NCBI RefSeq assembly: GCF_001881565.1
Contig: NZ_MPDJ01000008.1
Span: 132,442 to 196,441 of the forward strand
Reading direction: 5' to 3'
Length of the DNA: 64,000 nucleotides
Source of the DNA: Eisenbergiella tayi
GTDB taxonomy: Bacteria > Bacillota > Clostridia > Lachnospirales > Lachnospiraceae
Shown here: in pieces, positions 3,112-29,461 of the stretch
How the letters are laid out: every line of letters begins with the position of its first letter
Numbering within the stretch: position 1 is the stretch's first letter
Position numbers and translations under genes: made by a program
Notes under the pieces: model-generated
The model's input: only the letters and a program-made list of their open reading frames with translations
What the model was told of the DNA's origin: nothing
Databases searched by the model: none

Positions 3112-3189
3112 AGGGAAGATAATTAAATAATAATCTGGCAGTCTGGCTTTATCGGGCTTTTCGGCCGGATGTATAAGAACTACTGAAGG

Positions 3190-3226
3190 GAAAGGCTCTT
3201 ACTGACAAGTAAAGAGCCTTTCTTTA
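3190..3226 (+). terminator. Intercistronic hairpin/attenuator between binding protein and permeases
   Basis: AAAGGCTCTT (3191-3200) pairs with AAGAGCCTTT (from 3212), with an ACT/AGT extension, followed by CTTTATAAA. Such partial terminators commonly give more binding protein than permease. Confidence 0.7.
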
Positions 3227-3248
3227 TAAAGAAAGAAGGGGATGCGGT

Positions 3249-5010: not shown

Positions 5011-5048
5011 TGAAAAAGAGTGACCATATACAGAATGGAGAAAATGAA

Positions 5049-8372: not shown

Positions 8373-8423
8373 AGGTGTCATAAAATCTCTGTGACAGTAC
8401 AAAATAGGGGAGGCATTTTCAGG

Positions 8424-9389
8424 ATGGAATATCTTGCAGGAATTGATATAGGCGGTACGAAATGCGCCGTGACTATCGGTAAAATACAGGACGATCAGGT
8501 GGAACTTTTATGGAAGGAAAAATTTCCGACGCCGAAAGGCCCGCAGGCAGCGGTGGATAAGCTGGTGGAGACTTTGAAACATATGCTCTCGGCACATCCG
8601 GAAGTAAAGCTCACGGCTGTGGGAATCAGCTGCGGCGGCCCTCTGGATTCCAGAAAGGGGTTGATCCTTTGCCCGCCCAATCTGCCGGACTGGGACGGCA
8701 TTGATGTGGTAACTCCTTTTGAGGAAGCCTTTCATGTGCCTGCGGCGGTGCAGAATGATGCCAATGCCTGTGCGCTGGCGGAGTGGTTCTGGGGAGCCGG
8801 CAGGGGAACCCGTAATATGGTTTTCCTCACCTTCGGGACGGGTATCGGCGCCGGCCTTATTTTAGACGGAAGGCTCTACAGCGGCACCAACGACATGGCC
8901 GGTGAGGTGGGGCATGTCCGCCTTCTGGAGGACGGGCCGGAGGGCTATGGAAAGAGGGGCTCCTTCGAAGGCTTCTGCAGCGGCGGGGGCATTGCCAGAT
9001 ATGGCAGGGAAAAGGTGGCAGAGTGGTGCGGCCAGGGAAAAGAAACGCTGATTTTAAAGCGCGGGCAGTCCATAGAGGAAGTGACTACCCGGGATATAGG
9101 CCTTGCAGCGCAGGAGAAGGATCCCCTGGCCCTTTCCATTTTAGAATATACCGGAAGAATGCTGGGAAGGGGAGTCGCCATGCTGGCGGATATTCTGAAT
9201 CCGGAAGTGGTTGTGATCGGCAGTATTTTCCTGCGCCAGGAGGAAATCCTCCGGGGGCCCATGGAAGAGGTGATAGCCGAGGAGGCGCTGGCGCAGACCC
9301 GGCAGTCCTGCAGGGTGGTGCCCGCCGGGCTGGGCGAGCAGCTGGGAGATTATGCGGCGCTGTCCGTGGCCGGAAATCTGACAATATAG
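8424..9389 (+). CDS. ROK-family sugar kinase
   Basis: A 321-residue ROK-family kinase with the ATP-phosphate motif DIGGTK near the start, catalytic-region ND..ACALAEW, and FGTGIGAGLILDGRLYSG. The usual ROK zinc motif CxCGxxGCxE is not intact (GKRGSFEGFCSGGG instead), as in a subset of the family. It would phosphorylate a free hexose such as mannose, fructose or glucose after glycoside cleavage. ATG 8424, following GGGGAGG, is preferred over the 8391 codon. It sits between two alpha-mannosidases, so mannose or fructose is a sensible but unproven substrate. Confidence 0.88.
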   Translation: MEYLAGIDIGGTKCAVTIGKIQDDQVELLWKEKFPTPKGPQAAVDKLVETLKHMLSAHPEVKLTAVGISCGGPLDSRKGLILCPPNLPDWDGIDVVTPFEEAFHVPAAVQNDANACALAEWFWGAGRGTRNMVFLTFGTGIGAGLILDGRLYSGTNDMAGEVGHVRLLEDGPEGYGKRGSFEGFCSGGGIARYGREKVAEWCGQGKETLILKRGQSIEEVTTRDIGLAAQEKDPLALSILEYTGRMLGRGVAMLADILNPEVVVIGSIFLRQEEILRGPMEEVIAEEALAQTRQSCRVVPAGLGEQLGDYAALSVAGNLTI

Positions 9390-9399
9390 GAGAAAAGGT

Positions 9400-12300
9400 A
9401 TGAAGGTAAAGGATCCTCATTTTATACTGGAGAAAATCGAAAAATATATTCAGGAGGATATCCGCCCGAGCCGCATCAGGGCGGCGGTGGATCTGGAAAA
9501 CTGGAAGTATTATGAGACTTCCATGGAAGAGAAAACGGATACTGCCTGTGCGGCTGATTTTGATGACAGCGCATGGCAGGATTTTAAGCTCTGGGATACA
9601 TGGGGCGGATATGACAGGGTGGCCTGGTTCCGGACGAAGGTGGAGGTACCGGAGGAACTGATAGGAAAGAATCTGGCAGTCCGGCTTTTGGTGGGGCCCA
9701 GAGACGGCGGCGAATCCACGGCGGAAACCCTGCTGTATATTGACGGCAAACCCGTACAGGGAATCGATATCTGGCATGAGGAAGCGCTTCTGGAAGAAGC
9801 TTTATGCCGGAAAAAAGAAATGCAGATCGCGCTGAAGGCCTGGAGCGGCGTGCTGGTTCCGCCCAGATTCCGCACCTTTAAGCTGGCGCAGCTGTTATGG
9901 ATAGACGGCAGGGTGGACCGGTTCTGCTTTATGGCCGACACGGTACGCAGGTGCGCGCTTCTCCTGGATGAAAACGATCTGAGGAGAATACGGCTGACAA
10001 AGCTCCTGAATCAAACCTTCGAAAAGATTACCTTTTTGAATTTCAAAGAGGAAACCTATTATCAGTCCATTTATAACGCGCTGGACTTTCTGCAGGCAGG
10101 GCTGGACGAGATGGGAAGGACGGAGGAGATCAAGCCTGTGGTTTACGGCGTGGGCCATTCCCATATCGATATGGCCTGGCTGTGGAGGCTGTCCGCCACC
10201 AGGGAAAAGGCATCCCGCACGTTCTCCACGGTGCTCAACCTGATGAAGCAGTATCCGGAGTACCGGTATATGCATTCTTCCCCGCAGCTGTATCAGTTTT
10301 TAAAAGAGGATTATCCGGAGATTTATGAACAGGTGAAGGAACGCATACGGGAAGGCCGCTGGGAAATCACGGGTGGCATGTGGGTGGAGCCGGACACCAA
10401 CATCCCCTCCGGGGAATCCCTGGTGCGGCAGTTCCTTTATGGGAAACGTTTTATCAGGGAAGAATTCGGAAAAGAAACAACCCTCTGCTGGCTCCCGGAT
10501 GTGTTCGGCTATTCCGCTGCATTTCCGCAGATTATGAAAAAGAGCGGCATGAAGTATTTCATGACGACCAAGATTTCCTGGAATCAGTATAATCATTTCC
10601 CTTATGACACGTTCTGGTGGAAAGGGATTGACGGTTCCGAAATCTTCACCCATTTTATCACCACGCCGGAGGATGGTTCCTGGTTTTACACCTATAACGG
10701 GCACATGGATCCGGAAGAGGTGACAGGGGTATGGGAAAATTACAAGGATAAGGATAAAAATGACGAGCTGCTTATCGCATACGGATGGGGCGACGGCGGA
10801 GGCGGCCCCACAAGGGAAATGCTGGAGCAGAGCAGAGTGATGAAAAATATCCCGGGAATCCCCAGAGTGGAGATGAGTTCTGCGGAGGGGTATTTCCGGA
10901 GGCTGTATGACCATGCGGATAAGGAAAATCTGGGGAAATGGGACGGGGAACTCTATTTTGAGCTGCACCGCGGAACCTATACCTCTCAGGCGGAAACGAA
11001 GCGTTATAACCGCAAAACAGAGATCCTTCTTCATAATATAGAGCTGCTGGCGGCGCTGGCCCATCTGGATGGCGCGGCGTATCCCAAGGAAACACTGGAC
11101 GGCATATGGGAAAGGGTTCTGCTGAACCAGTTCCACGATATTCTGCCCGGCTCATCCATCAGACAGGTATATGAGGATACGGCCCGGGACTATGAGGCCA
11201 TTCGGGAAAAAGGAGCGGTGCTTTTAGAGGAAGCGAAGGAAAAGCTCTCAGAGAAAATCCGGGTGAACAGGAACAGCGTTGTTCTGTATAATACGGCGGG
11301 GTATGAACGGAGCGATTATGTTTGCATCCCTTACAGGGGCGCAGTGGAAAGGGATACCGTGCTTCTGGATGAGGACGGGCCGGTTTCTCAGACGGCAGGA
11401 GAAGACGGGATTCTGGCTTATGTGGAGAAGCTTCCGGCCTTCGGATACAAGACATTGCAGATCGCAGGGCAGGAGGCTGCCGCAGATGTCGGGGAAAAAC
11501 GGGTATCGGTATGCTGTGATGCGGTGATCAGTCCCTTTTACCGGATCACCTTCAATGCCAACGGCGAAATAGAAACCTTGTATGACCGGGAAGCGGAAAG
11601 ACAGGTGGACTGCGGACGTCCCATGAATGTATTTGCGGCTTTTGAGGACAAACCCCAGCGTTTTGATGCATGGGATGTGGATGTTTATTATAAAGAGAAG
11701 CCTTATGCGCCCTTTGTCCTGACCAAAAGAGAGGTGGTTTCCCAGGGAGAGACCGCGGTAATCCGTTCCTCCTGGAAGTTCAACAGGTCCGTCCTGACAC
11801 AGGATATGATTGTCTATGCCGATGACAGGCGGATCGACTTTGTCACCACCGTGGACTGGAAGGAAAAACAGGTTTTCTTAAAGGCATATTTCCCTGTGGA
11901 TGTCCATGCGGGCAAAGCTTCCTATGAAATCCAGTTCGGCAATATCAGGCGCCCCACTCATACCAATACGGAATGGGATTTTGCGCGCTTTGAGGTGCCG
12001 GGACACAGATGGGCGGATCTGTCCCAGGGTAATTATGGCGTGGCGATATTAAATGACTGCAAGTATGGCTATGACGTGCATGAAAACGTGCTGGGCCTGT
12101 CCCTGTTAAAATCGGCGGTAAGGCCGGACGAGACAGCGGACCGGAAGGTGCACCATTTCACATATTCGCTCTATCCGCACAGAGGCACGGCGGAAACGGC
12201 CGATGTGACAAAGGCTGCCATAAATCTGAATATGCCGGTGCTGACACAGTGCGTGCCGGCTGCCGGACAGGGGGAAAGCTTTGTACGGTCTTCTTTTGTA

Positions 12301-12564: not shown

Positions 12565-15207
12565 ATGAATATTTCACTGTCAGGATTACATTGGGAAGTA
12601 AAAGGATACTGGCCGTATGTGCCGGAAAAGGAGAAAAGCATGGAGACCGGCCAGACCCTGCATGGGGTGACGGACTGGCTTCCGGCAAAGGTTCCGGGAG
12701 GGGTGCACTATGACCTCTTCCGGGCAGGCCTTATCGAGAATCCTTATTATGGAAAAAACAGCCTGCATTGTGAATGGGCGGAAAACCGGTGGTGGATGTA
12801 CCGCGCCGGTTTTCCGTCAGTTTTCAACGGCTGTGATCTGGCGAAAGAGAGAGTGAGGCTGACTTTTGAAGGAGTGGATTATGAAGCCTCCATTTTCTTT
12901 AATGATCAGCTGTGTGCAGAGCACAAGGGCATGTATGAGCCTTTTTCCATAGATCTCACCGGAAGGATCCGGGAAGAAAATAAGCTGGTGGTTCTTTTAA
13001 AGGGAATCCCTCAGGAGATGGGGCAGATCGGTTATACCTCCAGGACGTTTACCCAGAAGAGCCGGTTTAACTATAAATGGGATTTTTCCACAAGGCTGGT
13101 GAATATCGGTATCTGGAAGGATGTCGTGCTGGAGGTTCCGGGACAGGCAGAGCTGTCGGATCTGCATTTGGATACCGGCTATTATGAAGAAACCGGGAGG
13201 ATTTATGTTTCCGGACAGGGGCAAGATTACAGAAACTGCCGGGAGACGCCTCTCTGGGTGAGGATCACGGCGGAAGATCCAGGGACACGCTGCAGCGGGG
13301 ATGCGGAGCTTATACGAGAGCAGGGCGCTGGAACGGCGGGAAGAACAGCCGGAAAAAGGGACGGTATCAGCAGGACGGTTCCCCTTTGTGATGGGCGGTT
13401 TGATACCGTCCTTCTGGTAGAGGATCCGCTTTTATGGTATCCCAACGGCGCGGGCCCCCAGTATTTATACCGGATCCGGATAGAACTTCTGGAGGAAAAA
13501 GACGGACGGGAAAACGTGTTGTATCAGACGGAAAGAAATACGGGCATCCGCAGCCTGAAAATGGTGCATAACGAGAAGGAGCATGAAAACGCGCTGCCCT
13601 ATACCTTTGAGGTGAACGGACGAAAGCTGTATATCAAAGGGGTAAATATGACACCCCTGGATCATATATATGGAAACGTGACAAAGGAACAATACGGCTA
13701 TATGGTATCTGCCATGGTCAACGCGGGGGTGAACCTGGTGCGTGTCTGGGGCGGCGGCCTGATCGAAAAAGAGGAATTCTATGATCTCTGCGATGAAAAC
13801 GGGATTCTGATCTGGCAGGAATTCATCCAGTCCAGCTCCGGCATCGACAATAAGCCGAGTGAACAGGAAGAGTTTCTGGAGCTTTTGAAGAAAACCGCAG
13901 AATGTGCGGTAAGGGAAAAAAGAAATCACGTTTCCCTAGCGGTTTACAGCGGAGGAAACGAATTGATGAAAGCGCCGGACAGGCCGTGCGGGATGGAAAA
14001 TAAAAATATTGCCATGCTGGAAGAAATCGTGCGCAGGCTGGACGGGCGCAGGGCTTTTCTTCCTACTTCGGCATCCGGCCCCAGGGAATTTGTCACTTCC
14101 GAAAAAGGGGTGAGCCATGATGTTCACGGCAGCTGGCGTTATGAGGGAAATCCCGGACATTATGTGCTGTATGGGGAGTCTGACAGTCTGTTCCACAGTG
14201 AATTCGGGATGGATGCGGCAAGCTGTGAAAAGAGCCTGAAAAAGTTCCTGCCCCGGGCTTCCCTGCATCCGACCCCCATGTCCCAGGATCCCTGCTGGCA
14301 GCATCACGGAGAATGGTGGGGAACCTATTTCCGGGATTGCGAAATGTTCGGTTCTATAGAAAAGACACCTGAAAACCTCGGGCTTTTCACCAGATGCAGC
14401 CAGTACATGCAGGGGGAAGGGCTGCGCTTTATCCTGGAGGCGGACAGGAGAAGAGCCTGGCAGAACAGCGGAACCATCATCTGGCAGCTCAATGAACCAT
14501 GGCCCAACGCTTCCTGTACCAATCTGGTGGATTATTACGGGGAAACCAAAACAGCCTATTACCAGGTGAAGAGAGCCTATGAGGAAAGACATGTATCCCT
14601 GGATTACCGGACACTCACTTATAAAAAGGGAGAAAACTTCTGTCTTCCGTTTTATGTTTCCAACAGCGGGGAAGCTTTTTCGGGAAAAGTGAGGATACTG
14701 GTCAGGAGTCTTTCCGGAAAAGTAATATCCGAAGACAGCCGGAGAGCTGAAATACCGGAAAACCGGAGTATACAGGCAGGAATAACGGAGGGAACAGTAC
14801 CGGAGGAAGCGTTATTTTTTGTCACTTTATATCTGGAAGAAGAGGGCAGGACTCTTTCGGAGAATACATATATGTTCGGCACCCGGGAAAAAGAAGTGTT
14901 TGCCCCTCTTTTCAAGAATACAGGAAGGGCGGAACTCAAATCAGAAAAATGGGAGACATGCAGAGACGGCAGACAGTGTGTAAAAGCCACGCTCACAAAC
15001 ACCGGAGATAGAGCCGTGCTGGATGCGGGTATTGCCCTCGCGGGAAATCAATATTACCTTCTGGGCAGTGACAATGACAGGGTGCTGTTCCCGGGAGAAG
15101 AGAGGACTTTTTCTTTTGTTCTGATACCGAAAAAATCCGGAGGCTTTTCGGAGAGTGAAAACTATGACGGCAGCGAAGTGCCGAAGCTGACAGTACATTG
15201 GCTGTGA
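12565..15207 (+). CDS. GH2 beta-mannosidase-like glycosidase
   Basis: An 880-residue GH2 protein: N-terminal sugar-binding jelly roll, immunoglobulin-like domains, then a TIM barrel with NLVRVWGGGLIEKEEFYDLCDENGILIWQEF, the hallmark of beta-mannosidases. YSGGNEL supplies the acid/base E466 and HSEFG the nucleophile E546. A stretch at residues about 245-275 is richer in Gly, Arg and Ala than its surroundings and looks like an inserted loop. No secretion signal. It would remove beta-mannose from the reducing-end part of imported oligosaccharides, as in an N-glycan core or a beta-mannan fragment. It is within the operon, 12 bases after the GH38 gene. Confidence 0.9.
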   Translation: MNISLSGLHWEVKGYWPYVPEKEKSMETGQTLHGVTDWLPAKVPGGVHYDLFRAGLIENPYYGKNSLHCEWAENRWWMYRAGFPSVFNGCDLAKERVRLTFEGVDYEASIFFNDQLCAEHKGMYEPFSIDLTGRIREENKLVVLLKGIPQEMGQIGYTSRTFTQKSRFNYKWDFSTRLVNIGIWKDVVLEVPGQAELSDLHLDTGYYEETGRIYVSGQGQDYRNCRETPLWVRITAEDPGTRCSGDAELIREQGAGTAGRTAGKRDGISRTVPLCDGRFDTVLLVEDPLLWYPNGAGPQYLYRIRIELLEEKDGRENVLYQTERNTGIRSLKMVHNEKEHENALPYTFEVNGRKLYIKGVNMTPLDHIYGNVTKEQYGYMVSAMVNAGVNLVRVWGGGLIEKEEFYDLCDENGILIWQEFIQSSSGIDNKPSEQEEFLELLKKTAECAVREKRNHVSLAVYSGGNELMKAPDRPCGMENKNIAMLEEIVRRLDGRRAFLPTSASGPREFVTSEKGVSHDVHGSWRYEGNPGHYVLYGESDSLFHSEFGMDAASCEKSLKKFLPRASLHPTPMSQDPCWQHHGEWWGTYFRDCEMFGSIEKTPENLGLFTRCSQYMQGEGLRFILEADRRRAWQNSGTIIWQLNEPWPNASCTNLVDYYGETKTAYYQVKRAYEERHVSLDYRTLTYKKGENFCLPFYVSNSGEAFSGKVRILVRSLSGKVISEDSRRAEIPENRSIQAGITEGTVPEEALFFVTLYLEEEGRTLSENTYMFGTREKEVFAPLFKNTGRAELKSEKWETCRDGRQCVKATLTNTGDRAVLDAGIALAGNQYYLLGSDNDRVLFPGEERTFSFVLIPKKSGGFSESENYDGSEVPKLTVHWL

Positions 15208-15219: not shown

Positions 15220-17532
15220 ATGGCAACGATAGCGGACAGATGTGATTTTACGCTGGAACTGGAATTTACAAGAATATACAGGGAGAATGCCGCCGCCCAC
15301 CGGGCGGTGCGGGAGGCCAAATGCCTGGCCTGGCAGCTGCCGCGGATCATCCTTGATATCGATGAGGATGATCTGGTGCCGGGAGGCTGCCATTATGGAG
15401 CGGTCGGTTTTTCCAGCCAGATCGGCGGATTCCTGTACTATGCACATGACAATAAGATCCGGGAAGAAATAGACAGAAACCGGGATCGTCCGGAATATTG
15501 CCGGCAGCTGGAGCAGATGAGAAGCTTCTGGCAGGAAGAGGACTGCAGGCACCGGCTGCGGCAGCGCTACAGCCCGCGGCAGCTTCTTGCCATGCCCACG
15601 GATGACTGGGAAGGGGAAAAAGCGATAACGTATCCTCTTTACCGTATCGCGGGAGGGATCCTGGATTTTCAAAAGCTGCTTTCCCTGGGGCTGCCGGGAC
15701 TTAAGGCGACGGCGGAAAAAAAGTATAGTAAGACGAGGCCCGGCAGTGAAGAAGCAGGCGTGTATGAAGGAATGCTTTTGTGTCTGGAGACGCTGCGCGG
15801 GATCATGGAGATTTATGAAAAGAGGGCGGCACAGAAGGCGGATTTGATCGGACAGCGGGAGAATACGCCGGAGAACAGGAGCGCTTTTTTGCGGATGAAG
15901 GCGATTCAGGAAGCCATGGCGTCCATTCAGAGCAAAAGACCGGAACATCTGCTGGAAGCGGTGGAATTGTTCTGGATGTATGTGCTGGTGTCTGAGGTTC
16001 GCAATTATGGCCGGATCGACAGCTATCTGGGCCGTTTTTATGCGGATGATATTGACAGCGGATATCTCACGCAGGAAGAAGCGGATACCATCATACAAAA
16101 GCTGTGGGAACGGATGGGAAAACGGCGCACCATTACCGACGGCCGTATTTTTATCGGCGGCAGGGGACGGGAGCAGGAGGAAAAGGCGGACCGCCTTGCC
16201 AAAGCCTGTATCAGGGCCACAAGAAAGCTGAAAAATCCGGATCCCCAGCTTTCCCTGCGTTTTTACAAGGGAATGGATCCCGAAATCCTTCAGATGGCCT
16301 ATGATGCTATTGGAGAAGGATGCACCTATCCTGTTCTGTACAGGGATGAAACCGTGGTTCGGGATGTCTGCAGGGCCTTTGAGCTTCCGGAGGAAACGGC
16401 AGTACACTATGTACCCTATGGCTGCGGGGAATATGTGATAGACCATGCCGGGTTTGGTACGCCAAGCGGCGTGATCAACCTGATGAAGGGGCTGGAACTG
16501 TTTTTATATACTCCCGGGGTGCAGAAAGAACCAGACGCGGAATACCTGCAGGGAGAAGAGGGAGAAAAGCGTTTGACGCTGCTGCGCAGGGAAGCCGGAA
16601 TTACCCGGTGGGCTGAGGAATATGAAACCTTTGAGCAGTTTTATGAAGCCTATAAAAAATGGATTTCCTTCCATATAGAGGTGATGGCGGAGCAGGAAAG
16701 GATGGAATATGATTTTGCGGGGGAAGTCTGCGGCCTGTCTTATCTTTCCATGCTTTATGATGACTGCATGGAACGGGGAAAGGGAATTTTCTCCGGCGGC
16801 ATACGTTATCTGGGCGGAACGCTGGAAAGCTACGGTAATGTGAATACGGCGGACAGTCTCACAGCCATCAGGAAGCTGGTGTATGAACAGAAGCTGGTGG
16901 GATGGCGCGAGCTTTTAACGGCATTGGAAGCGGATTTTAAGGGATATGATCTGCTTCGGAAGCGACTGAAGCGCTGTCCGAAGTTCGGCAATGATCAGGA
17001 AGAGGCGGACGGTATGCTGAAAAGTCTGCACCGGTTTGTCTGTCTGACCGCAAAGGCACAGGCAAAACGGGTGGGGCTGGACAGCTATCTGATCGTAGTA
17101 ATCAATAACAGCGCGAATACTTCGCTGGGCCTTCTCACCGGCGCTGGCGCGGACGGAAGGCATGCCTTTGTGTCCATGGCGAATGCCAACAGCCCCCAGG
17201 CGGGGGCCGATGAAAACGGGATCACGGCGGTGCTGAATTCCATGCTGCAGGCGGATACGGATATCCATGCGGGGGCCGTGCAGAACATTAAGTTTTCCAA
17301 AGAAACCTTTAATGAATCCAGAACTGCGGCGGTGAAAGTAATGGAAAGCTACTTTGAACGCGGCGGTGCGCAGCTGATGGTCACGGTAGTGGGACGGGAG
17401 GATTTGGAAAACGCTAGGAAGCGCCCTCAGGATTATACAGGGCTTCTGGTACGGGTAGGCGGTTTTTCCGCACGGTTCGTCGAACTGTCTGAAGAGGTGC
17501 AGGAGGATATTTTGAGCCGCAGCTGTTACTAA
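15220..17532 (+). CDS. Glycyl radical enzyme of unassigned substrate
   Basis: A 770-residue pyruvate-formate-lyase-like protein. The glycyl radical loop is at the C-terminus: RVGGFSARF with G748 as the radical residue. The active-site loop is HYVPYGCGEYVID with thiyl-forming C402 and E404. Pyruvate formate-lyase has adjacent Cys-Cys, while glycerol, choline, hydroxyproline and isethionate enzymes usually read C-V-E. A C-G-E loop keeps the Cys and Glu of the eliminase group but has Gly between them. An elimination/dehydration role on a diol- or sugar-like substrate is therefore likelier than thiolysis of pyruvate; that is inference. Its activase follows directly. Its place in a mannosidase operon is unusual. 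The enzyme needs strict anaerobiosis. Confidence 0.88.
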   Translation: MATIADRCDFTLELEFTRIYRENAAAHRAVREAKCLAWQLPRIILDIDEDDLVPGGCHYGAVGFSSQIGGFLYYAHDNKIREEIDRNRDRPEYCRQLEQMRSFWQEEDCRHRLRQRYSPRQLLAMPTDDWEGEKAITYPLYRIAGGILDFQKLLSLGLPGLKATAEKKYSKTRPGSEEAGVYEGMLLCLETLRGIMEIYEKRAAQKADLIGQRENTPENRSAFLRMKAIQEAMASIQSKRPEHLLEAVELFWMYVLVSEVRNYGRIDSYLGRFYADDIDSGYLTQEEADTIIQKLWERMGKRRTITDGRIFIGGRGREQEEKADRLAKACIRATRKLKNPDPQLSLRFYKGMDPEILQMAYDAIGEGCTYPVLYRDETVVRDVCRAFELPEETAVHYVPYGCGEYVIDHAGFGTPSGVINLMKGLELFLYTPGVQKEPDAEYLQGEEGEKRLTLLRREAGITRWAEEYETFEQFYEAYKKWISFHIEVMAEQERMEYDFAGEVCGLSYLSMLYDDCMERGKGIFSGGIRYLGGTLESYGNVNTADSLTAIRKLVYEQKLVGWRELLTALEADFKGYDLLRKRLKRCPKFGNDQEEADGMLKSLHRFVCLTAKAQAKRVGLDSYLIVVINNSANTSLGLLTGAGADGRHAFVSMANANSPQAGADENGITAVLNSMLQADTDIHAGAVQNIKFSKETFNESRTAAVKVMESYFERGGAQLMVTVVGREDLENARKRPQDYTGLLVRVGGFSARFVELSEEVQEDILSRSCY

Positions 17533-17578
17533 ACCATTACAGGATGTATGACGGCATACGGCGGCTTTGGAGGAAGAG

Positions 17579-18484
17579 ATGACAGGAGAAATTTTTTCCA
17601 TGGAGAGGTTTTCCATCCATGACGGCCCGGGGGTACGGACCAGTATTTTTTTAAAAGGCTGTCCCCTGCACTGTATCTGGTGCCATAATCCGGAAAGTCA
17701 TGAGAGGGGCCCCGTACTGCAGTATCTGGAAAAAGAGTGCGTGGGCTGCGCCGGCTGTGTATCAGCCTGTCCGTCCGGGGTACACAGCTTCATAAACGGT
17801 AAGCACAGGATGGATCGTGGGAAATGTACCGGCTGCGGACAGTGCTGTCTTGCCTGCCCGGGGGATGCCCTGCGTATCCGGGGAAAAGCCTGCACCGCAG
17901 AAGAAGTGCTGCAGGTAATCGGGAAAGACAGGCCTTATTACGGGGAAGAAGGCGGCGTGACGCTTTCCGGCGGGGAACCGCTTCTACAGCCCGATTTTGC
18001 GGCGGAAATTCTGAGACTCTGCAAAGAGAGGGGAATCGGTACCTGTGTGGAGACTGCCGGGGACGTATCCCAAAAGGCTTTCTTAAAGGTAATCGCTGAT
18101 ACGGATCTGTTTCTGTATGACTACAAGCTTGATACCCAGGAACAGATGGACCGTTATACGGGCGGCAGCCTGAAAAGAATACGGGAAAACCTGGAGCTGC
18201 TGGCGGGGCATGGAAAAAAAGTAGTGCTGCGCTGTCCCATCATACCGGGGATCAATGATACCCGGGAGCATTTAAAGGCGATTGCAGAGCTGGCGGACAG
18301 GCTGTCCATAGCGGATACGGAGCTGATGCCATATCATGGATACGGGGAAGACAAATGGCGGCAGATCGGAAAGGAATACGCTCTTTCGGGGCTTCCCAAT
18401 ATGGAAAAGGAAACGGCAGATATCTGCAGAAGGCAGCTGGCCGGGCTGAGGGCTGGCTGTCATGAGAAAGGGAGAGAAGTTTGA
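17579..18484 (+). CDS. Glycyl-radical-enzyme activating protein (radical SAM)
   Basis: A 301-residue radical-SAM activase. The SAM cluster motif CPLHCIWC (C-x3-C-x2-C) is near residue 27. An inserted ferredoxin-like domain holds two CxxCxxCxxxCP motifs (CVGCAGCVSACP and CTGCGQCCLACP), as in activases of the glycerol/choline type but not PflA. The SGGEPL motif that positions SAM follows. It would install the glycyl radical on the enzyme encoded just upstream (46-bp gap). ATG 17579 with GGAGG ahead of it is chosen; the upstream TTG 17567 lies inside the ribosome site. The two extra clusters support assigning the partner to the non-PFL group. Confidence 0.93.
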   Translation: MTGEIFSMERFSIHDGPGVRTSIFLKGCPLHCIWCHNPESHERGPVLQYLEKECVGCAGCVSACPSGVHSFINGKHRMDRGKCTGCGQCCLACPGDALRIRGKACTAEEVLQVIGKDRPYYGEEGGVTLSGGEPLLQPDFAAEILRLCKERGIGTCVETAGDVSQKAFLKVIADTDLFLYDYKLDTQEQMDRYTGGSLKRIRENLELLAGHGKKVVLRCPIIPGINDTREHLKAIAELADRLSIADTELMPYHGYGEDKWRQIGKEYALSGLPNMEKETADICRRQLAGLRAGCHEKGREV

Positions 18485-18536
18485 AACAAAGTACGTTTCA
18501 AATATTGAATGAATGTCCGCTGAAGCGGACAGGGGG
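18480..18536 (+). promoter_or_regulatory. Two adjacent inverted repeats and ribosome site before the GH36 gene
   Basis: TTTGAAAC (18480-18487) is inverted at GTTTCAAA (18495-18502). Twelve bases on, TGTCCGCT (18514-18521) is inverted at AGCGGACA (18524-18531), touching the AGGGGG ribosome site of the alpha-galactosidase. They could be an operator, an RNA processing/stability hairpin, or a control on translation. The repeats are exact. Confidence 0.55.
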
Positions 18537-18543
18537 TATAAAT

Positions 18544-20637
18544 ATGAAAAAGTGGTATCGCGTGCAGGAGAACGGTGTCAATCTCGTTTTTCTTGTAACG
18601 GAAAATGGAGAGGTTTTCTTTGTACACTGTCAAAAGAGCGGATTTGAGGAAAAGGAAATACCGGAGGATCAGCTGGAGGGCTACCGGCTGGTACAGCTCC
18701 AGGCCGCAGGAGAGGATCAGGATGATCATCATGGGGCTAAATATACGGGGACGCTGCCCGGCTGCCGGCTCATATTTGATTCCTTCCTGGATGAAAGGAA
18801 GAAAAATGGCAGGCGGATCACCATTGCCCAAAAGGATCCCGTGACAGGCCTGCTGGTAAAAAGCTGTCTGCAGTTTACCGGGAAAGCGGCGGTGGCAGAG
18901 AGCTGGACAGTCGTGGAAAATGAAGGAAAGGAGCCTGTGGGGCTCACCTATGTATCCTCCTTTTGCCTGAACGGCCTTACCAAAGAGGTATCCCTGCCCT
19001 GGGATCAGGCCCTGTCTTTGATGGTGCCCTCCAACAGCTGGTACGGGGAATTCCAGTGGAAGCGCCATACGCTGCCCGGCCTTGGAATGTATAAGGTATT
19101 CCATTATTCTACAAAACGCCTTTCGTATTCGGCCACAGGCACCTGGAATTCGCATGAGTATCTGCCCATGGGATATGTTTCCAATGATCCGGCAAAGGAG
19201 GGCTGGTATTTTTCAATTATTCATAACGGTTCCTGGCACTGGGAAATCGGAGACAGCAGGGATCAGCTTTATCTTCAGCTTTCCGGACCAACAGAGGCTG
19301 AAAATCACTGGTATCATGAGCTGAAGCCGCAGGAAAGCTTTGAAAGCGTCCATGCCGCGGTGGCGGTAACGGCGGAAGGGTTTGAGGATGCGGCGGCGCA
19401 GATGACACAGTGGCGCCGGCTTATGAGGAGAAAGAATGAAGATGATGAAAAGCTCCCCGTCATTTTCAATGATTTCATGAACTGCCTTGGCGGCGATCCT
19501 AAGGAAGAAAAGGAATATCCTCTGATTGATGCGGCGGCTGAAATCGGCTGTGAGTATTATACCATTGATGCCGGCTGGTATGCGAACGGCTCCTGGTGGT
19601 CCCGGGTGGGCGAATGGGAACCGGCCGTGCAGCGCTGGCCGAACGGTCTTGAAACCGTCCTTTCCTATATCCGGGAAAAAGGGATGGTGCCCGGATTATG
19701 GCTGGAGCTGGAGGTGATGGGCATTCACTGTCCGATTGCCGATAAGCTGCCGGACGACTGGTTTTTTATGCGTCATAAGAAACGCGTCATCGATCATGGC
19801 AGATACCAGCTGGATTACCGGAATCCGGAGGTCCGAGCCTTTGCGGACGATGTGATCAGAAGGCTGGTGGAGGACTACGGCGCCGGATACATCAAGATGG
19901 ACTACAATATTAATGCGGGGATCGGAACGGAGCGGGATGCGAACAGTGCGGGAGATGGCTTGCTTGGCCATAACAGGGCTTACCTGGAATGGCTGGATCA
20001 TATATTTGCCAAATGGCCGGAGCTGATTATCGAAAACTGCGGCAGCGGCGGCATGCGCATCAATGATGCCCTGCTTTCCAGGCACAGCATACAGTCTTCC
20101 AGCGACCAGACTGATTATACCAGGTATGCAGCCATTTCGGCGGCAGCCCCGGCGGCGGTCACACCGGAGCAAAATGCCGTCTGGTCCTACCCGCTTTTTG
20201 ATGCGGATGCCGAGCAGACAGCCTTTAATATGGTGAATGCCATGACCATGCGCATCCATCAGAGCGGTCATCTGGCGAAGCTTTCAGAGGAGAATAAGGC
20301 TCTTATCAAAGAAGGGATCGACTGCTATAAGTCTTACAGGCACCTGATTCCGGAATCCTTTCCCTTCTGGCCTCTTGGGATCCCATCCTTTGACGATTTA
20401 CACCCTGCAGTTGGTTTTTATCAGGAGGAATGCGCTTTTCTGGCAGTGTGGAACCTGGAAGAGGAAGAAAAGGAAACCTGCCTGCCTCTACACGGTGCAA
20501 AGCACAGGCTCGCCGGTGCAGAGCTGATATATCCCGCAGCCCTGCCATGCAGCTATACCTTTGATGAGAGGGAAAATAATCTGATCGTAAAACAACCGGC
20601 CAAAAGTGCAAGGCTGTTCCGGCTTATCTATGAGTGA
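18544..20637 (+). CDS. GH36 alpha-galactosidase-like glycosidase
   Basis: A 697-residue GH36 (clan GH-D) enzyme: N-terminal beta-supersandwich, TIM barrel from about residue 300 with IDAGWY and GLWLELEVMG, the nucleophile in YIKMDYN (D453), ENCGSGGMR, and the acid/base in SSSDQTDY (D521), then a C-terminal beta domain. It would remove terminal alpha-galactose; some family members act on related sugars. No signal peptide: cytoplasmic. ATG 18544 is chosen because AGGGGG precedes it; the in-frame TTG at 18481 has no ribosome site. With the beta-mannosidase it could process galactomannan fragments or alpha-Gal-capped glycans. Confidence 0.88.
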   Translation: MKKWYRVQENGVNLVFLVTENGEVFFVHCQKSGFEEKEIPEDQLEGYRLVQLQAAGEDQDDHHGAKYTGTLPGCRLIFDSFLDERKKNGRRITIAQKDPVTGLLVKSCLQFTGKAAVAESWTVVENEGKEPVGLTYVSSFCLNGLTKEVSLPWDQALSLMVPSNSWYGEFQWKRHTLPGLGMYKVFHYSTKRLSYSATGTWNSHEYLPMGYVSNDPAKEGWYFSIIHNGSWHWEIGDSRDQLYLQLSGPTEAENHWYHELKPQESFESVHAAVAVTAEGFEDAAAQMTQWRRLMRRKNEDDEKLPVIFNDFMNCLGGDPKEEKEYPLIDAAAEIGCEYYTIDAGWYANGSWWSRVGEWEPAVQRWPNGLETVLSYIREKGMVPGLWLELEVMGIHCPIADKLPDDWFFMRHKKRVIDHGRYQLDYRNPEVRAFADDVIRRLVEDYGAGYIKMDYNINAGIGTERDANSAGDGLLGHNRAYLEWLDHIFAKWPELIIENCGSGGMRINDALLSRHSIQSSSDQTDYTRYAAISAAAPAAVTPEQNAVWSYPLFDADAEQTAFNMVNAMTMRIHQSGHLAKLSEENKALIKEGIDCYKSYRHLIPESFPFWPLGIPSFDDLHPAVGFYQEECAFLAVWNLEEEEKETCLPLHGAKHRLAGAELIYPAALPCSYTFDERENNLIVKQPAKSARLFRLIYE

Positions 20638-20656
20638 GGTAAGGGGAGGTATCAAT

Positions 20657-22120
20657 ATGCCGAATGTGATCCTGATTACCACCGATCAGCAGCGCTATGA
20701 CACACTGGGCTGCAATGGGAATTCTTTTATACATACCCCGAATCTGGATGAACTCGCGGCACAGGGAGCCCGGTTTGAAAGGGCATACTGTACCAATCCC
20801 GTGTGTACGCCCTCCCGGGTGTCCATCATGACGGGGCAGCTGCCCTCACACCATGGTTCCTATAATATAGGAACTGTGGCGGCCGATACCTCAGGCTTTT
20901 TGAGCAGCGTCCTGACCGATGCCGGTTACCGCACCCATCAGCTGGGAAAGGCTCATTTTTATCCCTGGGACACGGCTTCTCCGGAAACGCGCAGGCCGGA
21001 CGGCATGGAGCCTTTTTATGACTTTGCAGGCTTTGAAACAGCGGAGCTTTCCGTGGGACACAGCGACTGGGGCGTAAACAGCCATTATGAAAAATGGCTG
21101 GAAGAGAAGGGGATCAGAAAAGGGCGGCATATGCCGCAGCTGCAGGTGAAGCGGCTTTTTCCAAACGACCCTTATCAGACCGGGGACTGGGGAATGCCGG
21201 TAAATTGCCATTCAGGCGCATGGATCGTGGACAGGGCGGAGCATTTTCTGAGAGACAGGCCGAAGGACAGGCCTTTTTACCTAAATATCGGCTTTCAGGA
21301 TCCTCATCATCCGCTGGCGGTGCCTGAAGAATGGCCTAAAATCCCGGAAGATACCATACCGGATCCGGAAGGTGCTTTCGACCCTGGGCTGGCTCATCTG
21401 AAGGCGCTTTCGGAAGGAAGGATAGAAGAAGCTTTCGGGGGCCGCTATGGCATTGCAGGAAACCAGGACACCGTGTGGAAGGATGTGCCCCTGGAAATCA
21501 GGAAAAAGGTACGCAGCTATTACTATTCCATGGTGGAGCTGTTCGACAGGCAGATAGGGGAGTTAATCGCTCTGCTGAAAAAGTACGAAGTCTTTGAGGA
21601 TACGCTGCTGATGATTACCAGCGATCACGGAGATATGCTTTTTGATCACGGCCTGGGCGAAAAAGGCCCCATGGCCTTTGAAGAGGTGCTGCGGGTGCCT
21701 CTTATCATGGGGCTGCCGGGAAGAATCCGGCCTCAGACGGTCAGCGAGCCGGTATCCCTGGCAGACCTGTATCCCACGGTGCTGGATTATCTTGGCCTTT
21801 CCGCAGAAACATTCTGTGACGGCATATCTCTGCGTCCTTTGCTGGAAGGCGGTGCGATGACCAGAAAAGGCGTTCAGGCAGAGTTTATGGAGGAAAAGGA
21901 TGCCATCCGTTACCGTTGTTTTATGACAAAGGAATGGAAGCTGGCGGAATATCCGGGAGAAAGCTTCGGGGAATTGTATCATCTCACGGAGGATCCCAAA
22001 GAGCAGCATAACCTATGGGCAGAGCCGGAATACCTGATGATAAAATATGAACTGCTGCGGCAGTATCTTCAGGAAATGCAGCGGCAGGAGCCTGCGGCAC
22101 AGCGGCCCTGCCGGTGCTGA
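20657..22120 (+). CDS. Cys-type sulfatase family protein
   Basis: A 487-residue arylsulfatase-superfamily hydrolase starting MPNVILITTDQQRYDTLGC (metal-binding Asp pair). CTPSR carries C50, to be converted to formylglycine, and R54; ITSDHGDMLFDHG supplies the second metal-binding group. No signal peptide is visible, so it is likely cytoplasmic and acts on imported sulfated sugars; a phosphonate-hydrolase-like activity is a less likely alternative. The maturase that would modify C50 under anaerobic conditions (anSME) is not in this window. ATG 20657 follows GGGGAGG. It lies between GH36 and GH38 genes, suggesting the target glycan bears sulfate. Confidence 0.88.
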   Translation: MPNVILITTDQQRYDTLGCNGNSFIHTPNLDELAAQGARFERAYCTNPVCTPSRVSIMTGQLPSHHGSYNIGTVAADTSGFLSSVLTDAGYRTHQLGKAHFYPWDTASPETRRPDGMEPFYDFAGFETAELSVGHSDWGVNSHYEKWLEEKGIRKGRHMPQLQVKRLFPNDPYQTGDWGMPVNCHSGAWIVDRAEHFLRDRPKDRPFYLNIGFQDPHHPLAVPEEWPKIPEDTIPDPEGAFDPGLAHLKALSEGRIEEAFGGRYGIAGNQDTVWKDVPLEIRKKVRSYYYSMVELFDRQIGELIALLKKYEVFEDTLLMITSDHGDMLFDHGLGEKGPMAFEEVLRVPLIMGLPGRIRPQTVSEPVSLADLYPTVLDYLGLSAETFCDGISLRPLLEGGAMTRKGVQAEFMEEKDAIRYRCFMTKEWKLAEYPGESFGELYHLTEDPKEQHNLWAEPEYLMIKYELLRQYLQEMQRQEPAAQRPCRC

Positions 22121-22173: not shown

Positions 22174-24609
22174 ATGGGGACAGACAGAAAAAAGTATTAC
22201 ATGGTCGGCTATACGCATATCGATCCCGTATGGCTGTGGAACAGGGCGGAAGGGATGCAGGAAGTGAAATCCTCCTTTATCTCCGCACTGGATCGGCTGG
22301 AAGAATTCCCGGATTTTAAGTTTATGCACACGAGCATTTCCTATCTGGCGTGGCTGAAGGAGAACTGTCCGCAGCAGTACGCCCGTATCCATAAATATGT
22401 GGAGGAAGGCCGCTGGGAAATTGCGGGCGGCATGTGGGTGGAGCCCGACTGCGACCTCCCGTCCGGAGAAGCGCTGATCCGCCATTTTTTATATGGCACG
22501 GCATTCGTAAGGGAAGAATTCCAAAAAGAAGTGACGGTGGGATTTAATCCGGACAGCTTTGGACACGGCGCCAATCTGCCCGCCATTTTGCAGGGCTGCG
22601 GCATCCGGTATTATGCGCTTTCCAGGCCGGGTAAGGGCAGTGTCAGCCTGCCGCCTGTTTTTCTGTGGAAGGCAAAAGACGGCAGCAGTGTGGTTTCCGA
22701 GAGAACCGGAGGGGAATATATGGCATGGACCAGGCCTGCCGTGGAATTTAACCTTAAGGAGAGCCGGGAGGCGCTGGAGGAAATCGATTATGATAAGATG
22801 GCTGTCTTCTACGGCGTGGGAAACCATGGCGGAGGCCCTACCATCGATAATATCCGTACTATTTATGAAATGCGCCAGGAATATGGGAAAGAGGAACTGG
22901 ATTTTTCCACGCTGGAGGCCTCTTTTGAGAAGGTTGAGCCGGAACGCCTTCCTGAGGTGACGGGGGAACTGGGCCGTATTTTCTATGGCTGCTACAGCTC
23001 CGACAGGGGCATCAAGCAGGCAAACCGCAGGGCGGAATGGACGCTTCTGAAGGCAGAGGCTGTAGCGGCTATGGCGGCCGGCATGGGAATATCCTCATAC
23101 CAATACCCGGCGCATAAGTTGGAAGAGGCCTGGAAGGAAGCTTTGTTCAACCAGTTTCATGATGTTCTGGCCGGAACCAGCATAGAAACGGCAAGGGATC
23201 AGGCCTGCAGAGAGTTTTCCGCCGCGATCTCCGCGGGGGAACGTCTGATTCATGACGGCGTCCAGGCTATTGCCAATGCCCTTGATACCAGAGGGGACGG
23301 CTTTCCGCTGGTACTTGTCAACCCCACGGGAAATGATTTCTCAGGCATCTTTTCCGCCGATGTGTATGTGCCGAGGGCGCAGAAAAAACCGCTGCGCCTG
23401 CGGGATGTAAAGGGAGAGGAAATTTTATACTGCGAGACCGATTATCATAATACAGCCCCGGAGAGCAGGAAGGGGATTTTGTTTGAGGCTCAGATTCCCG
23501 CCTTCGGCTATGCAGTTTACCGGGTGATTGGAGAGGGGCCGAATACGGAAAATACCCTGCCTGCCATCCGGGCATCCGAAACCTGCCTGGATAACGGAAT
23601 CGTCCGCATGGAACTGGACGAAAAAACGGGATGTCCTTCCCTCATAAAAAAAGGAGGGAAACAGCTGCTGGCAGCGCCCTGCCGGGTACAGGTGTTTTAT
23701 GATGACAGAGGCGCCTGGGGAGAGACGGTTTATGAGGAAAAGACGGTCGGCGTCTTTGAACGGGTCAGAAGCTATGTGGTGGAGGCGAATGCCATGCGCG
23801 CCGTATTGCGGGTGCTTCTTGCATTTGAACATTCGGAGATGCGGATTGATTATATACTGGAAAAAGGGAGCGATATCCTGAAAATGGATGTCCGCCTTCA
23901 TAATATGGAGAAGCACAGACAGATAGATTTCTGCATGCCTGTGAAGGCAGAACAGCCGTCTGTCCTGACGGAGACGGCATTCCTTGCGGAAGAAAAGATT
24001 GACTGTGAAGACACAAATACGGAGCATTACCAGCACCGCTTTGCGGATGTGTCGGGAGCGGACGGAAGCGGAATTGCCATTATAAATGACAGCATCTATG
24101 CCTGCAGGCAGGTTAAAAACGAATATTGTCTGATTTTATCCCGAAGCAGCGTTTACGCGCGGGGAAAGGGCGGGCCGCTGGCTGAGGATATGGGAACCGC
24201 TTTTATGGATCAGGGAACCTGGGATTATGAGCTGCGGCTGATTCCCCATACAAAGAAAATACAGAAGCAGAGGCTGTTCACAGAGGCGGACTTTTTACAT
24301 ATGCCGCCGGAATATCTGGGGGACAGCAATCATACAGGAGAAAGATGGCTGCGGACCGGCTCCCTGCTTCAGATAGAAAAAGAAAATGCGGTGGTATCCT
24401 GCTTAAAGAATGGATTCCGGGATCCCGGATCGCTGGTACTGCGTATATTTGAAACGGAAGGAAAGGGCGGCAGCTGCAGAATATGCGGTATGGGAAACCA
24501 GGCGGAGGCAGCCCTTGCTCCCTGGCAGATCAAAACACTCACACTGACGAAAGAAGGCCTGAAAGAATGCGATATGCTGGAACGGCCGGCAAGGGGGCAG
24601 GAGACATAA
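22174..24609 (+). CDS. GH38 alpha-mannosidase (811 aa form)
   Basis: The third GH38 enzyme. It opens with VGYTHIDPVWLW (H15, D17 zinc ligands). GFNPDSFGHGANLP carries the nucleophile D127, VGNHGGGPT matches the short paralogue at 5949, and NQFHDVLAGTS is present. No signal peptide. It is 53 bases after the sulfatase and almost abuts the MATE gene. Having three distinct GH38 enzymes in one operon suggests split duties for different alpha-linkages or modified mannose residues. The short N-terminus groups it with the 807-residue form rather than the 1050-residue one. Confidence 0.92.
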   Translation: MGTDRKKYYMVGYTHIDPVWLWNRAEGMQEVKSSFISALDRLEEFPDFKFMHTSISYLAWLKENCPQQYARIHKYVEEGRWEIAGGMWVEPDCDLPSGEALIRHFLYGTAFVREEFQKEVTVGFNPDSFGHGANLPAILQGCGIRYYALSRPGKGSVSLPPVFLWKAKDGSSVVSERTGGEYMAWTRPAVEFNLKESREALEEIDYDKMAVFYGVGNHGGGPTIDNIRTIYEMRQEYGKEELDFSTLEASFEKVEPERLPEVTGELGRIFYGCYSSDRGIKQANRRAEWTLLKAEAVAAMAAGMGISSYQYPAHKLEEAWKEALFNQFHDVLAGTSIETARDQACREFSAAISAGERLIHDGVQAIANALDTRGDGFPLVLVNPTGNDFSGIFSADVYVPRAQKKPLRLRDVKGEEILYCETDYHNTAPESRKGILFEAQIPAFGYAVYRVIGEGPNTENTLPAIRASETCLDNGIVRMELDEKTGCPSLIKKGGKQLLAAPCRVQVFYDDRGAWGETVYEEKTVGVFERVRSYVVEANAMRAVLRVLLAFEHSEMRIDYILEKGSDILKMDVRLHNMEKHRQIDFCMPVKAEQPSVLTETAFLAEEKIDCEDTNTEHYQHRFADVSGADGSGIAIINDSIYACRQVKNEYCLILSRSSVYARGKGGPLAEDMGTAFMDQGTWDYELRLIPHTKKIQKQRLFTEADFLHMPPEYLGDSNHTGERWLRTGSLLQIEKENAVVSCLKNGFRDPGSLVLRIFETEGKGGSCRICGMGNQAEAALAPWQIKTLTLTKEGLKECDMLERPARGQET

Positions 24610-26168: not shown

Positions 26169-27092
26169 ATGAAGAGGGAAAAAATGACGGTGCAGGCAGG
26201 AAAGAGTAGCCGGTACCGCAGGAAGGAAATAACGGCCGCCTATCTTTTTATAGCGCCCCAGATTATCGGGCTGACCCTGTTTGTACTGGTGCCGCTTATC
26301 TTTGCGGTAGTACTGTGTTTTTGTTCCTGGGATTTTATGAATGCACCGCAATTTGTAGGCGGTCGGAATTTCTGGAACGTGTTTGTGTTTGACGGGGACG
26401 TCTTTTATAAAACCCTTCTGAATACGGCGATTTTTATTCTGGGCATTGTTCCGCTGACTATGATATTTTCTCTGGGACTTGCTTTGCTGGCCAATCAAAA
26501 GCTGAAGGGGCTGTCATTTTATAAAAGTGCGTTTTTCATGCCCATGGTTACCTCAACAGTTGCTGTCGCCATGGTCTGGTATTGGCTGTATGCTCCGGAT
26601 ATGGGACTGATTAATTATCTGCTGGGATCGATTGGCATTGAAGGGCCGGGCTGGCTGGCGGATCCGGTATGGGCGAGAGTGGCGGTGATCATAATGTCGG
26701 CCTGGTCCAAGATGGGATATTATTTCCTGCTTTTTCTGGCAGGGCTGAAAGGGATTTCTTCCACCTATTATGAGGCGGCGGAAATGGACGGGGCTTCCTT
26801 CTGGCAGAAATTCAAAAGTATTACACTGCCCATGCTTTCTCCGGTAACTTTTTTCATTTTTGTGATGCTGATGATTGACGCTTTTAATATGTTTGATCTG
26901 GCTTATATCATGACACGGGGCGGCCCGATGTTTTCCACCTATTCTCTTGTTATGTATATTTATAACCAGGCCTTCCAGTATTTTGATTTGGGTTCGGCCA
27001 GTGTGGCGAGTATAGTCCTGGTGCTGTTTGCGGGTTCGGTCAGCGCCATTCAGTTTATCGTATCTAAAAGGTTGGTGAATTATGACAATTAG
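26169..27092 (+). CDS. Sugar ABC transporter permease, MalF/LacF-like
   Basis: A 307-residue CUT1 permease with a basic N-terminus, about six membrane segments and the EAA loop EAAEMDGASFWQKFKSITLP. It has a GAGGAGGAG ribosome site and overlaps the next permease by 11 bases. It is the first gene of a second transporter that is separate from the first by a terminator. Again no ATPase gene is nearby. Confidence 0.92.
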   Translation: MKREKMTVQAGKSSRYRRKEITAAYLFIAPQIIGLTLFVLVPLIFAVVLCFCSWDFMNAPQFVGGRNFWNVFVFDGDVFYKTLLNTAIFILGIVPLTMIFSLGLALLANQKLKGLSFYKSAFFMPMVTSTVAVAMVWYWLYAPDMGLINYLLGSIGIEGPGWLADPVWARVAVIIMSAWSKMGYYFLLFLAGLKGISSTYYEAAEMDGASFWQKFKSITLPMLSPVTFFIFVMLMIDAFNMFDLAYIMTRGGPMFSTYSLVMYIYNQAFQYFDLGSASVASIVLVLFAGSVSAIQFIVSKRLVNYDN

Positions 27093-27921: not shown

Positions 27922-27976
27922 AATGGCTCTTTCAAAAAGAGCCGAAAAACATTAAAATATTTAAGGAGGGTTTTCA

Positions 27977-29392: not shown

Positions 29393-29411
29393 GAAAATGT
29401 AGTTTTGGCAA

Positions 29412-29437
29412 AGACCCTGCAGGCTGCAGGGTTTTTA
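29412..29437 (+). terminator. Terminator after second sugar-binding lipoprotein
   Basis: ACCCTGCA (29414-29421) pairs with TGCAGGGT (29425-29432) and is followed by a T run. The loop is short (3 nt). Read-through to the response regulator gene may occur. Confidence 0.75.
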
Positions 29438-29461
29438 CCGTCTTAATATGAAGGGGAAATC

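Follow-up and report, generated by a model that had tools for sequence, protein, structure and literature searches.

A multi-phylum glycyl radical enzyme family with a C-G-E active site recurs beside mannosidase genes and may act on mannose-type sugars

What could a glycyl radical enzyme (GRE) be doing in the middle of a mannosidase operon? This question is raised by a stretch of 64,000 nucleotides from the lachnospiraceal bacterium Eisenbergiella tayi (assembly GCF_001881565.1, contig NZ_MPDJ01000008.1, positions 132,442 to 196,441 of the forward strand), referred to here as the window, which comes from an assembly with a listed completeness of 99.53% and contamination of 12.33%. A first reading made from the letters alone (the sequence-only reading) had noticed a GRE gene with a C-G-E active site, its activase and the surrounding mannosidase genes, and had proposed a radical dehydration or C-C/C-O cleavage of a sugar-derived polyol as a new pathway step. 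As outlined below, that reading was right in its observation and context, and its interpretation is partly supported, the polyol substrate staying a hypothesis: the GRE belongs to a large family whose members repeatedly and specifically neighbour mannoside-cleaving genes.

The window is confirmed to encode an intact GRE together with its own activase inside the mannosidase operon (Table 1), with no internal stop in either open reading frame (ORF). The GRE contains both domains of the superfamily, the PFL-like domain PF02901 (4.5e-88) and the glycine-radical domain PF01228 (4e-20), PFL being pyruvate formate-lyase. The GRE fingerprint is described as RVXG[FWY] in a part of PMC11528403; the RVGGF of the window protein conforms to it, and the central catalytic cysteine is C402, which together with E404 lies in the loop YGCGEYVIDH. 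The adjacent partner is a radical SAM (S-adenosylmethionine) activase with the CxxxCxxC motif (GCPLHCIWC) and two CxxCxxCxxxCP ferredoxin motifs, which scores above the cut-off of the general GRE-activase model TIGR02494 (311.7 against 174.35 bits) and, among the 25 of 56 NCBIfam matches listed, above that of no substrate-specific activase equivalog. Two extra clusters are typical of GRE activases except that of PFL. The radical loop with G748, the C402-G-E404 motif and the two additional ferredoxin clusters, all named in the sequence-only reading, are thus confirmed by ORFs, Pfam and motifs.

By its sequence, the protein falls outside the characterised GREs. Among the NCBIfam matches listed, no curated model of a characterised GRE is passed by the window protein, which reaches 53.6 bits for PFL (TIGR01255, cut-off 994.2), 204 for PflD (NF007437, 1109), 211 for CutC (1050), 205 for HYPD (1100), 229 for HpsG (1000) and 287 for the PFL2/glycerol dehydratase subfamily (TIGR01774, 678.2), the CutC, HYPD, HpsG/HpfG, HPAD and IAD models together giving 140-229 bits with cut-offs of 1000-1150. 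In a profile built from ten family sequences, fetched members score at least 803 bits and ten other PFL-like proteins at most 379. A genome scan matched 403 relatives, of which only the best 80 were kept; intermediates or distant relatives that blur the edge of the family may exist. In the tree, a single branch (SH-aLRT 99, length 1.41) sets 87 rows, the window among them, apart from the glycerol-dehydratase-like, HYPD and PFL GREs encoded in the same genome; this is a quick tree with some long branches and 23 open forks, from which five loci (L001, L002, L003, L009 and L096) were left out as repeat hits. Its 86 relatives comprise 76 from 13 phyla and 10 without a phylum, most of them from metagenome-assembled genomes, and phyla with a single row could be mis-binned contigs. 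Within the order of the window, 17 of the 295 genomes drawn, its own included, have a family GRE at an E-value of 1e-150 or better. Judged by profiles and tree, the window GRE is a member of a deep, multi-phylum family without a curated model that it passes, and the clustering with PFL or a characterised GRE, which the sequence-only reading had set against its own proposal, was not found. Two Flavobacteriaceae (L036 and L064, including Pelagihabitans pacificus), a group better known for oxygen-using members, also carry the GRE and activase, which is odd for an oxygen-sensitive enzyme.

The family shares more than its overall similarity. Residues were counted over 100 members, a set that leaves out seven re-fetched loci (L116, L117 and L131-L135). 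The Cys-x-Glu pair typical of GRE eliminases, C402/E404, is present in all 100, and at position 403 the window's Gly is shared by 92 members, the other eight having Thr (C-T-E). C-G-E, present as the earlier reading had noted, is thus to be regarded not as a lone oddity, an idea we rejected, but as a signature of the whole family. Also invariant are R142, R265, D267, R309, Q343, R347, D376, P415, E536, K588, N629, N630, R647 and G748, and R317 and H683 are kept in 99 members; in our alignment R309, R317, E536, N629, N630 and H683 are present neither in YbiW or PflD nor in a glycerol-dehydratase-like GRE or HYPD. In the column of R142 the aligned GREs have Arg (HYPD), Lys (PflD), Ser (YbiW) or Asn (glycerol-dehydratase-like), the register at this position differing by one residue between the two alignments made. 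Parts of PMC8473560 describe a common beta-1 site (IslA-Q193, CutC-D216, HypD-H160) and an Arg that precedes it by four residues. In isethionate sulfite-lyase (IslA) this Arg is R189, which contacts the substrate and for which mutagenesis addressed the sulfonate; in trans-4-hydroxyproline dehydratase (HypD) it is R156, which reaches hydroxyproline (Hyp) through a water molecule. HypD and IslA resemble the window family in having an Arg near the substrate at the upstream site, and differ from it at the common site, where HypD-His160 and IslA-Gln193 are replaced by Gly. The location of R142 on the upstream Arg, combined with this Gly, suggests that the pocket is roomier and the substrate perhaps anionic.

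The AlphaFold2 model of the window GRE (66 sequences) has a pLDDT of 94.4 and a pTM of 0.93, and its nearest solved structures are GREs, many with Z about 36-38, followed by PFL with 28 and anaerobic ribonucleotide reductase below 24. Many GREs, glycerol/diol dehydratases among them, are tied within about 1-2 Z in this search, and the absence of a family from the list proves nothing. The B12-independent glycerol/1,2-propanediol dehydratases (1r8w, 5i2g) share the fold (Z about 38), the Cys-x-Glu loop and the radical loop with the window GRE, at an identity of only about 22-25% in the fold alignments. The residues that we take to be the substrate residues of these dehydratases (H164, H281, S282 and D447, in the numbering of the 1r8w alignment) are not kept: the window GRE has Gly or a gap at H164, a gap at D447 and no His-Ser at H281-S282, where the preceding loop is five residues shorter, while R309 and N629-N630 stand in the window family instead. 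PFL shares the superfamily fold and has adjacent Cys-Cys in place of C-G-E. YbiW and PflD (8id7, 8id0, 8yjo) have a C-x-E loop and a setting with a kinase or phosphotransferase and an aldolase in common with the window GRE, and differ from it in overall sequence (21-26% identity in fold alignments) and in their C-I-E and C-V-E motifs. Two structure titles name their ligands, 1,5-anhydroglucitol-6-phosphate for YbiW (8id7) and 1,5-anhydromannitol-6-phosphate for PflD (8id0), and a part of PMC12441222 states that both enzymes cleave 1,5-anhydrohexitol-6-phosphates to 1-deoxyfructose-6-phosphate. Sugar-acting GREs have been in print since 2024, and since YbiW and PflD act on these compounds, breaking a C-O bond of a sugar derivative by a radical is not an entirely new kind of reaction. 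Ma et al. (JACS 2024) are reportedly the source for this cleavage. Our literature search, with most subscription papers outside its reach, found no paper joining GREs with GH38, GH92, GH130 or mannosidases, GH standing for glycoside hydrolase family; PMC8950772 names a glycyl radical enzyme in its reference list only.

A further indication of function is the gene neighbourhood. It was analysed in 50 loci, chosen from the best 80 mainly for long flanks and after the gene maps had been seen, against 50 named genomes (223.9 Mb) with 150 matches to GH38, 156 to GH130, 145 to GH92 and 376 to GH43. GH38 lies no further than about 10 kb from the GRE at 7 loci (0.74 expected), GH130 at 8 (0.74) and GH92 at 11 (0.62); 24 of the 50 loci have at least one of these mannoside-cleaving families at that distance (2.08 expected). 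GH43, the commoner family in these genomes, served as control and occurs at none (1.57 expected); its profile, made from 19 high-scoring sequences, may miss distant GH43 and found the family at 2 of all 81 loci, neither of which belongs to the 50. P values for these counts treat the loci as independent though they are not, and genome counts come from Pfam and locus counts from our own profiles, which differ in sensitivity. In the full set (the best 80 and the window) the three families are found at 33 of 81 loci, and at 31 of the 68 with a total length of at least 12 kb, over which their presence changes state at least 15 times on the tree. Because of this enrichment, the empty control and the repeated changes of state, the link between GRE and mannoside genes is both repeated and specific. 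At four loci (L015, L016, L018 and L029) the only GH92 match of the genome sits in the fetched GRE flank, and the GH130 neighbour of L045 is UhgbMP-like. ROK genes stand near 11 of the 81 loci. Within 4.5 kb there are 205 unlabelled neighbour ORFs, of which 100 were scanned; they matched 117 Pfam families and revealed no other recurrent partner, the commonest family having 3 of 100 among the matches listed; the operon table makes no call for L062, L074 and L087. The conserved co-occurrence with GH38 that the sequence-only reading had suggested looking for thus holds for GH38, GH92, GH130 and GH2 genes generally and not for GH38 alone, about half of the loci having none of the first three. The other outcome that would have spoken against that reading, relatives without any conserved neighbourhood, was likewise not seen.

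Since mannosidase or mannose-using genes are so often found beside the family GRE, the enzyme probably breaks a C-O bond in a mannose-like sugar. In our preferred reading, to which we give only slightly less than an even chance, it serves anaerobic catabolism as a radical C-O eliminase that acts, in the manner of YbiW and PflD, on a mannose-configured and probably anionic sugar (a phosphate or an acid). The gene content, the family, its invariant residues, the modelled fold and the recurrent neighbourhood are established here; we infer the activation, the chemistry, the anionic group and each substrate and product as follows. The activase would install the radical on G748, from which C402 would become a thiyl radical that abstracts a hydrogen from a hydroxyl-bearing carbon of a mannose-type sugar freed by the mannosidases of the operon. 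With E404 accepting the hydroxyl proton, the adjacent C-O bond would break, either by loss of water or by opening of a C-O ether, to yield a deoxy-keto sugar. The substrate would probably be anionic, either a 6-phosphate made by the ROK kinase or a carboxylate, and could be held by R142 with R309 and N629/N630. The products of the kinase and aldolase genes would then route the product into glycolysis. A more tentative proposal, which we consider possible rather than probable, is that the multi-phylum family as a whole catalyses a radical C-O elimination new to the literature, with mannose-configured sugars (in free, phosphorylated or acidic form) as substrates, and so provides a radical branch of mannose and N-glycan catabolism.

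Several points weigh against this reading. The malleability of GRE active sites hampers the prediction of chemistry and substrate, according to a part of PMC8473560. Mannose metabolism could proceed without any GRE, and 26 of the 50 loci, or 48 of the 81 (many having short flanks), have no GH38, GH92 or GH130 gene nearby. Within the family, the window GRE itself branches from a long stem (1.23) that it shares with just two close relatives. Moreover, partner genes differ between subclades, and N-acetylmannosamine (ManNAc), the sugar indicated in one of them, has no C2 hydroxyl, so that one reaction may not fit all members.

In single subclades the GRE is found beside GH106-type rhamnosidase, ManNAc-6-phosphate epimerase, phosphomannose isomerase or phosphotransferase genes. 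The Bacteroidota and Verrucomicrobiota members account for GH130 near 13 of the 81 loci, 11 of which also have a sodium symporter gene. Ignavibacteria and their tree neighbours have a GRE-activase unit and a divergent AraC gene near GH92, Gfo/Idh, gluconolactonase-like SGL and aldo/keto reductase (AKR) genes, and L014 and L017 hold GH106-type rhamnosidase and ThuA-like genes (identified by profile in L014 and by Pfam in L017). In the C-T-E subclade, L121 has a run of ROK, ManNAc-6-phosphate 2-epimerase, GRE, phosphomannose isomerase, activase and Gfo/Idh genes, assigned by similarity; the run recurs without Gfo/Idh in L123 and without the isomerase in L122, in both cases opening with a monosaccharide-type ABC importer. 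The epimerase of L122 scores 250.9 bits with the NCBIfam epimerase model (cut-off 189) and is also present in L128 and, about 6 kb off, in L135; Pfam finds NanE in L123, L128 and L135, PMI_typeI in L123, and Peripla_BP_4 and BPD_transp_2 in the L122 importer. In L127 the GRE and activase are joined by a phosphotransferase and by a GH38 that comes closest to mannosylglycerate hydrolase (596 bits, cut-off 1138). The common thread is the mannose configuration, with mannose-6-phosphate-type compounds as a likely hub; given the ManNAc and rhamnose contexts, a single identical reaction for all members is doubtful. In Robinsoniella peoriensis (L077, 14141-15844) a GH2-GH38-GRE-activase-ROK run is followed by a 214-aa SIS-domain protein, by eye GmhA-like, and a UROD-family gene, and UROD-like genes lie near 8 of the 81 loci.

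Recurrent neighbours of another kind raise the possibility that the GRE is a sugar-acid dehydratase of the mannonate type, acting downstream of a sugar dehydrogenase and a lactonase. Gfo/Idh/MocA genes are present near 20 of the 81 loci (a raw count without a background rate), aldo/keto reductases near 12, SMP-30/gluconolactonases near 7 and amidohydrolase-2 genes near 7, and the HypD Arg at the R142 site reaches its substrate through water. None of these Gfo/Idh, AKR, gluconolactonase and amidohydrolase-2 families is represented among the 20 proteins scanned in the window operon, and ordinary non-radical dehydratases already carry out mannonate-type dehydration; we consider this explanation unlikely.

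Slightly less probable is that the family is a separate GRE branch with PflD/YbiW-like activity, which opens the ring of a 1,5-anhydrohexitol (1,5-anhydromannitol, for instance) or of the corresponding 6-phosphate to give 1-deoxyfructose or its 6-phosphate. This chemistry is already known, 1,5-anhydromannitol is mannose-configured, and PflD has a Lys at one position where the window family has Arg. However, the window GRE stays far below the PflD model, the pathway has no need of mannosidases, and fsaA/fsaB profiles have no match in the flanks of the 81 loci and 20 further loci; in Escherichia coli, fsaA adjoins ybiY-ybiW, and about 4 kb separate fsaB from pflD. One locus, L133, with its phosphotransferase, GldA-like and DeoC-family genes, does recall E. 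coli pflD with phosphotransferase genes, fsaB and gldA, but a second, different PFL-like gene separates the activase of L133 from this group, which may serve that gene instead. This second protein (L133, 6330-8660) has a GC-N-D loop and RVTGYSAYF and adjoins the C-T-E member, and a xylulokinase-type gene is also present. The aldolase and kinase of the window were rejected as proof of such a route: the aldolase is of the bisphosphate type, which requires a ketose 1-phosphate, and no FSA was found in the flanks searched. Likewise rejected was the Gfo/Idh protein (L018 only) as a 1,5-anhydrofructose reductase, its best solved match being 1zh8 with 243 bits and 1,5-anhydrofructose reductase reaching 60; the aldo/keto reductase of L018 is of the uninformative AKR6 type.

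Two improbable explanations concern the role of the GRE in its operon. The enzyme could remove a substituent of mannose, such as an O-methyl ether, another unusual ether or a C-C link, to free a usable sugar, as the position of the GRE in the window and in L121-L123 among genes probably using mannose or ManNAc might indicate. Decoration enzymes are indeed present (a sulfatase in the window operon, and sulfatase-like genes near 6 and SASA acetylesterase-type genes also near 6 of the 81 loci), as are the UROD-like genes, but this is circumstantial, sulfatases and esterases need no radical partner, and in the families examined we recognised no gene dedicated to O-methyl ethers or other unusual ones. 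Equally improbable is that the GRE is a passenger, glycan operons of anaerobes gathering radical enzymes of unrelated substrates. Many members do form GRE or GRE-activase units whose gene run holds no glycosidase, often beside a divergent AraC gene; the enrichment is nevertheless specific to mannoside families, absent for the commoner GH43 and recurrent in separate subclades. Finally, that the protein is PFL or another characterised GRE, for which only the general PFL-like Pfam match speaks, is rejected on its scores far below the listed cut-offs and its own clade.

The operon around the GRE and the residues discussed are listed in Table 1. The partner genes of the sequence-only reading (three GH38, GH2, sulfatase, ROK kinase and class II aldolase) were recovered by Pfam; its 'GH36' is a loose name for the melibiase-type gene, whose best NCBIfam model is beta-L-arabinopyranosidase (465 bits, cut-off 1100). 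Its remark that microcompartment genes are absent nearby also holds, no shell family being matched among the 20 window proteins scanned (between 1750 and 34569), a further difference from the glycerol/diol dehydratases. The GH2 gene ends 12 bases upstream of the GRE, and the activase is tightly packed against the melibiase-type gene. In the genome of a second species of the genus (G012) the importer, aldolase, three GH38s, ROK, GH2, GRE and activase recur with 63-84% identity; three sulfatases there are just 25-29% alike, an additional GH38 is 35% alike, a minus-strand ORF precedes the GRE, and the melibiase-type gene, 71% alike in L011, is absent from the compared stretch. Downstream (3') of the glycosidase genes, the stretch 26169-32840 encodes another ABC importer together with a two-component system whose output is of the AraC type, which may regulate the operon, and an integrase gene with a Tn916-type DNA-binding domain (43099-44307, minus strand) possibly marks a mobile element.

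Table 1. Genes of the mannosidase operon and GRE features, in window positions
Feature	Position	Strand	Basis or remark
ABC sugar importer: binding protein and two permeases	1750-5010	+	Pfam
Class II aldolase, tagatose/fructose-bisphosphate type	5007-5936	+	Pfam
GH38 alpha-mannosidase	5949-8372	+	Pfam
ROK hexokinase, glucokinase/ManNAc-kinase type	8391-9389	+	Pfam
GH38, Ams1-like alpha-mannosidase, 1050 aa	9400-12552	+	Pfam
GH2 with Mannosidase_ig domain, beta-mannosidase type	12565-15207	+	Pfam
GRE, C-G-E family, 770 aa, ATG start	15220-17532	+	ORF, Pfam, NCBIfam, tree
R142 codon	15643-15645	+	Aligns with HYPD Arg four residues before the beta-1 His (IslA-R189/HypD-R156 site)
R309 codon	16144-16146	+	Reference GREs: Asn (YbiW, glycerol-dehydratase-like, HYPD) or Thr (PflD)
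C402-G403-E404	16423-16431	+	Putative roles, drawn from GRE eliminases: thiyl-radical Cys, general base
N629-N630	17104-17109	+	Just behind strand 622-627
Glycyl radical loop RVGGFSARF (G748)	17452-17478	+	
Radical SAM activase, 305 aa, TTG start, two extra 4Fe-4S motifs	17567-18484	+	ORF, Pfam, NCBIfam
Melibiase-type glycosidase (PF02065)	18481-20637	+	Pfam
Sulfatase	20606-22120	+	Pfam
GH38 alpha-mannosidase	22174-24609	+	Pfam

The window genome contains 10 PFL-like genes in all. Three of them (L111, L112 and L113) form a second GRE family of 722-736 aa with the loop RVTGYSAFF and a GC-N-W cysteine loop without Glu. In L112 (contig C17:3000-22900) two GH38 genes directly follow the GRE (8827-11037), and the stretches of L111 and L113 hold a GH106-like gene. 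The location of this distant C-N-W family directly beside two GH38 genes suggests that the use of radical chemistry on glycan sugars may have more than one origin. Another GRE of this genome (L108, C6:37000-56900; GRE at 8792-11161) has GC-W-E and the loop RMGGWSAYF, and lies near GH2-, aldo/keto-reductase- and SGL-like genes.

GREs perform some of the hardest reactions in anaerobic metabolism, and a family present in 13 phyla without a curated model that the window member passes represents a sizeable block of that chemistry. It also provides a concrete, assayable substrate list for enzyme discovery. If the substrate is indeed of the mannose type, the family would give anaerobes a radical route for the use of host, plant and microbial N-glycans and mannans.

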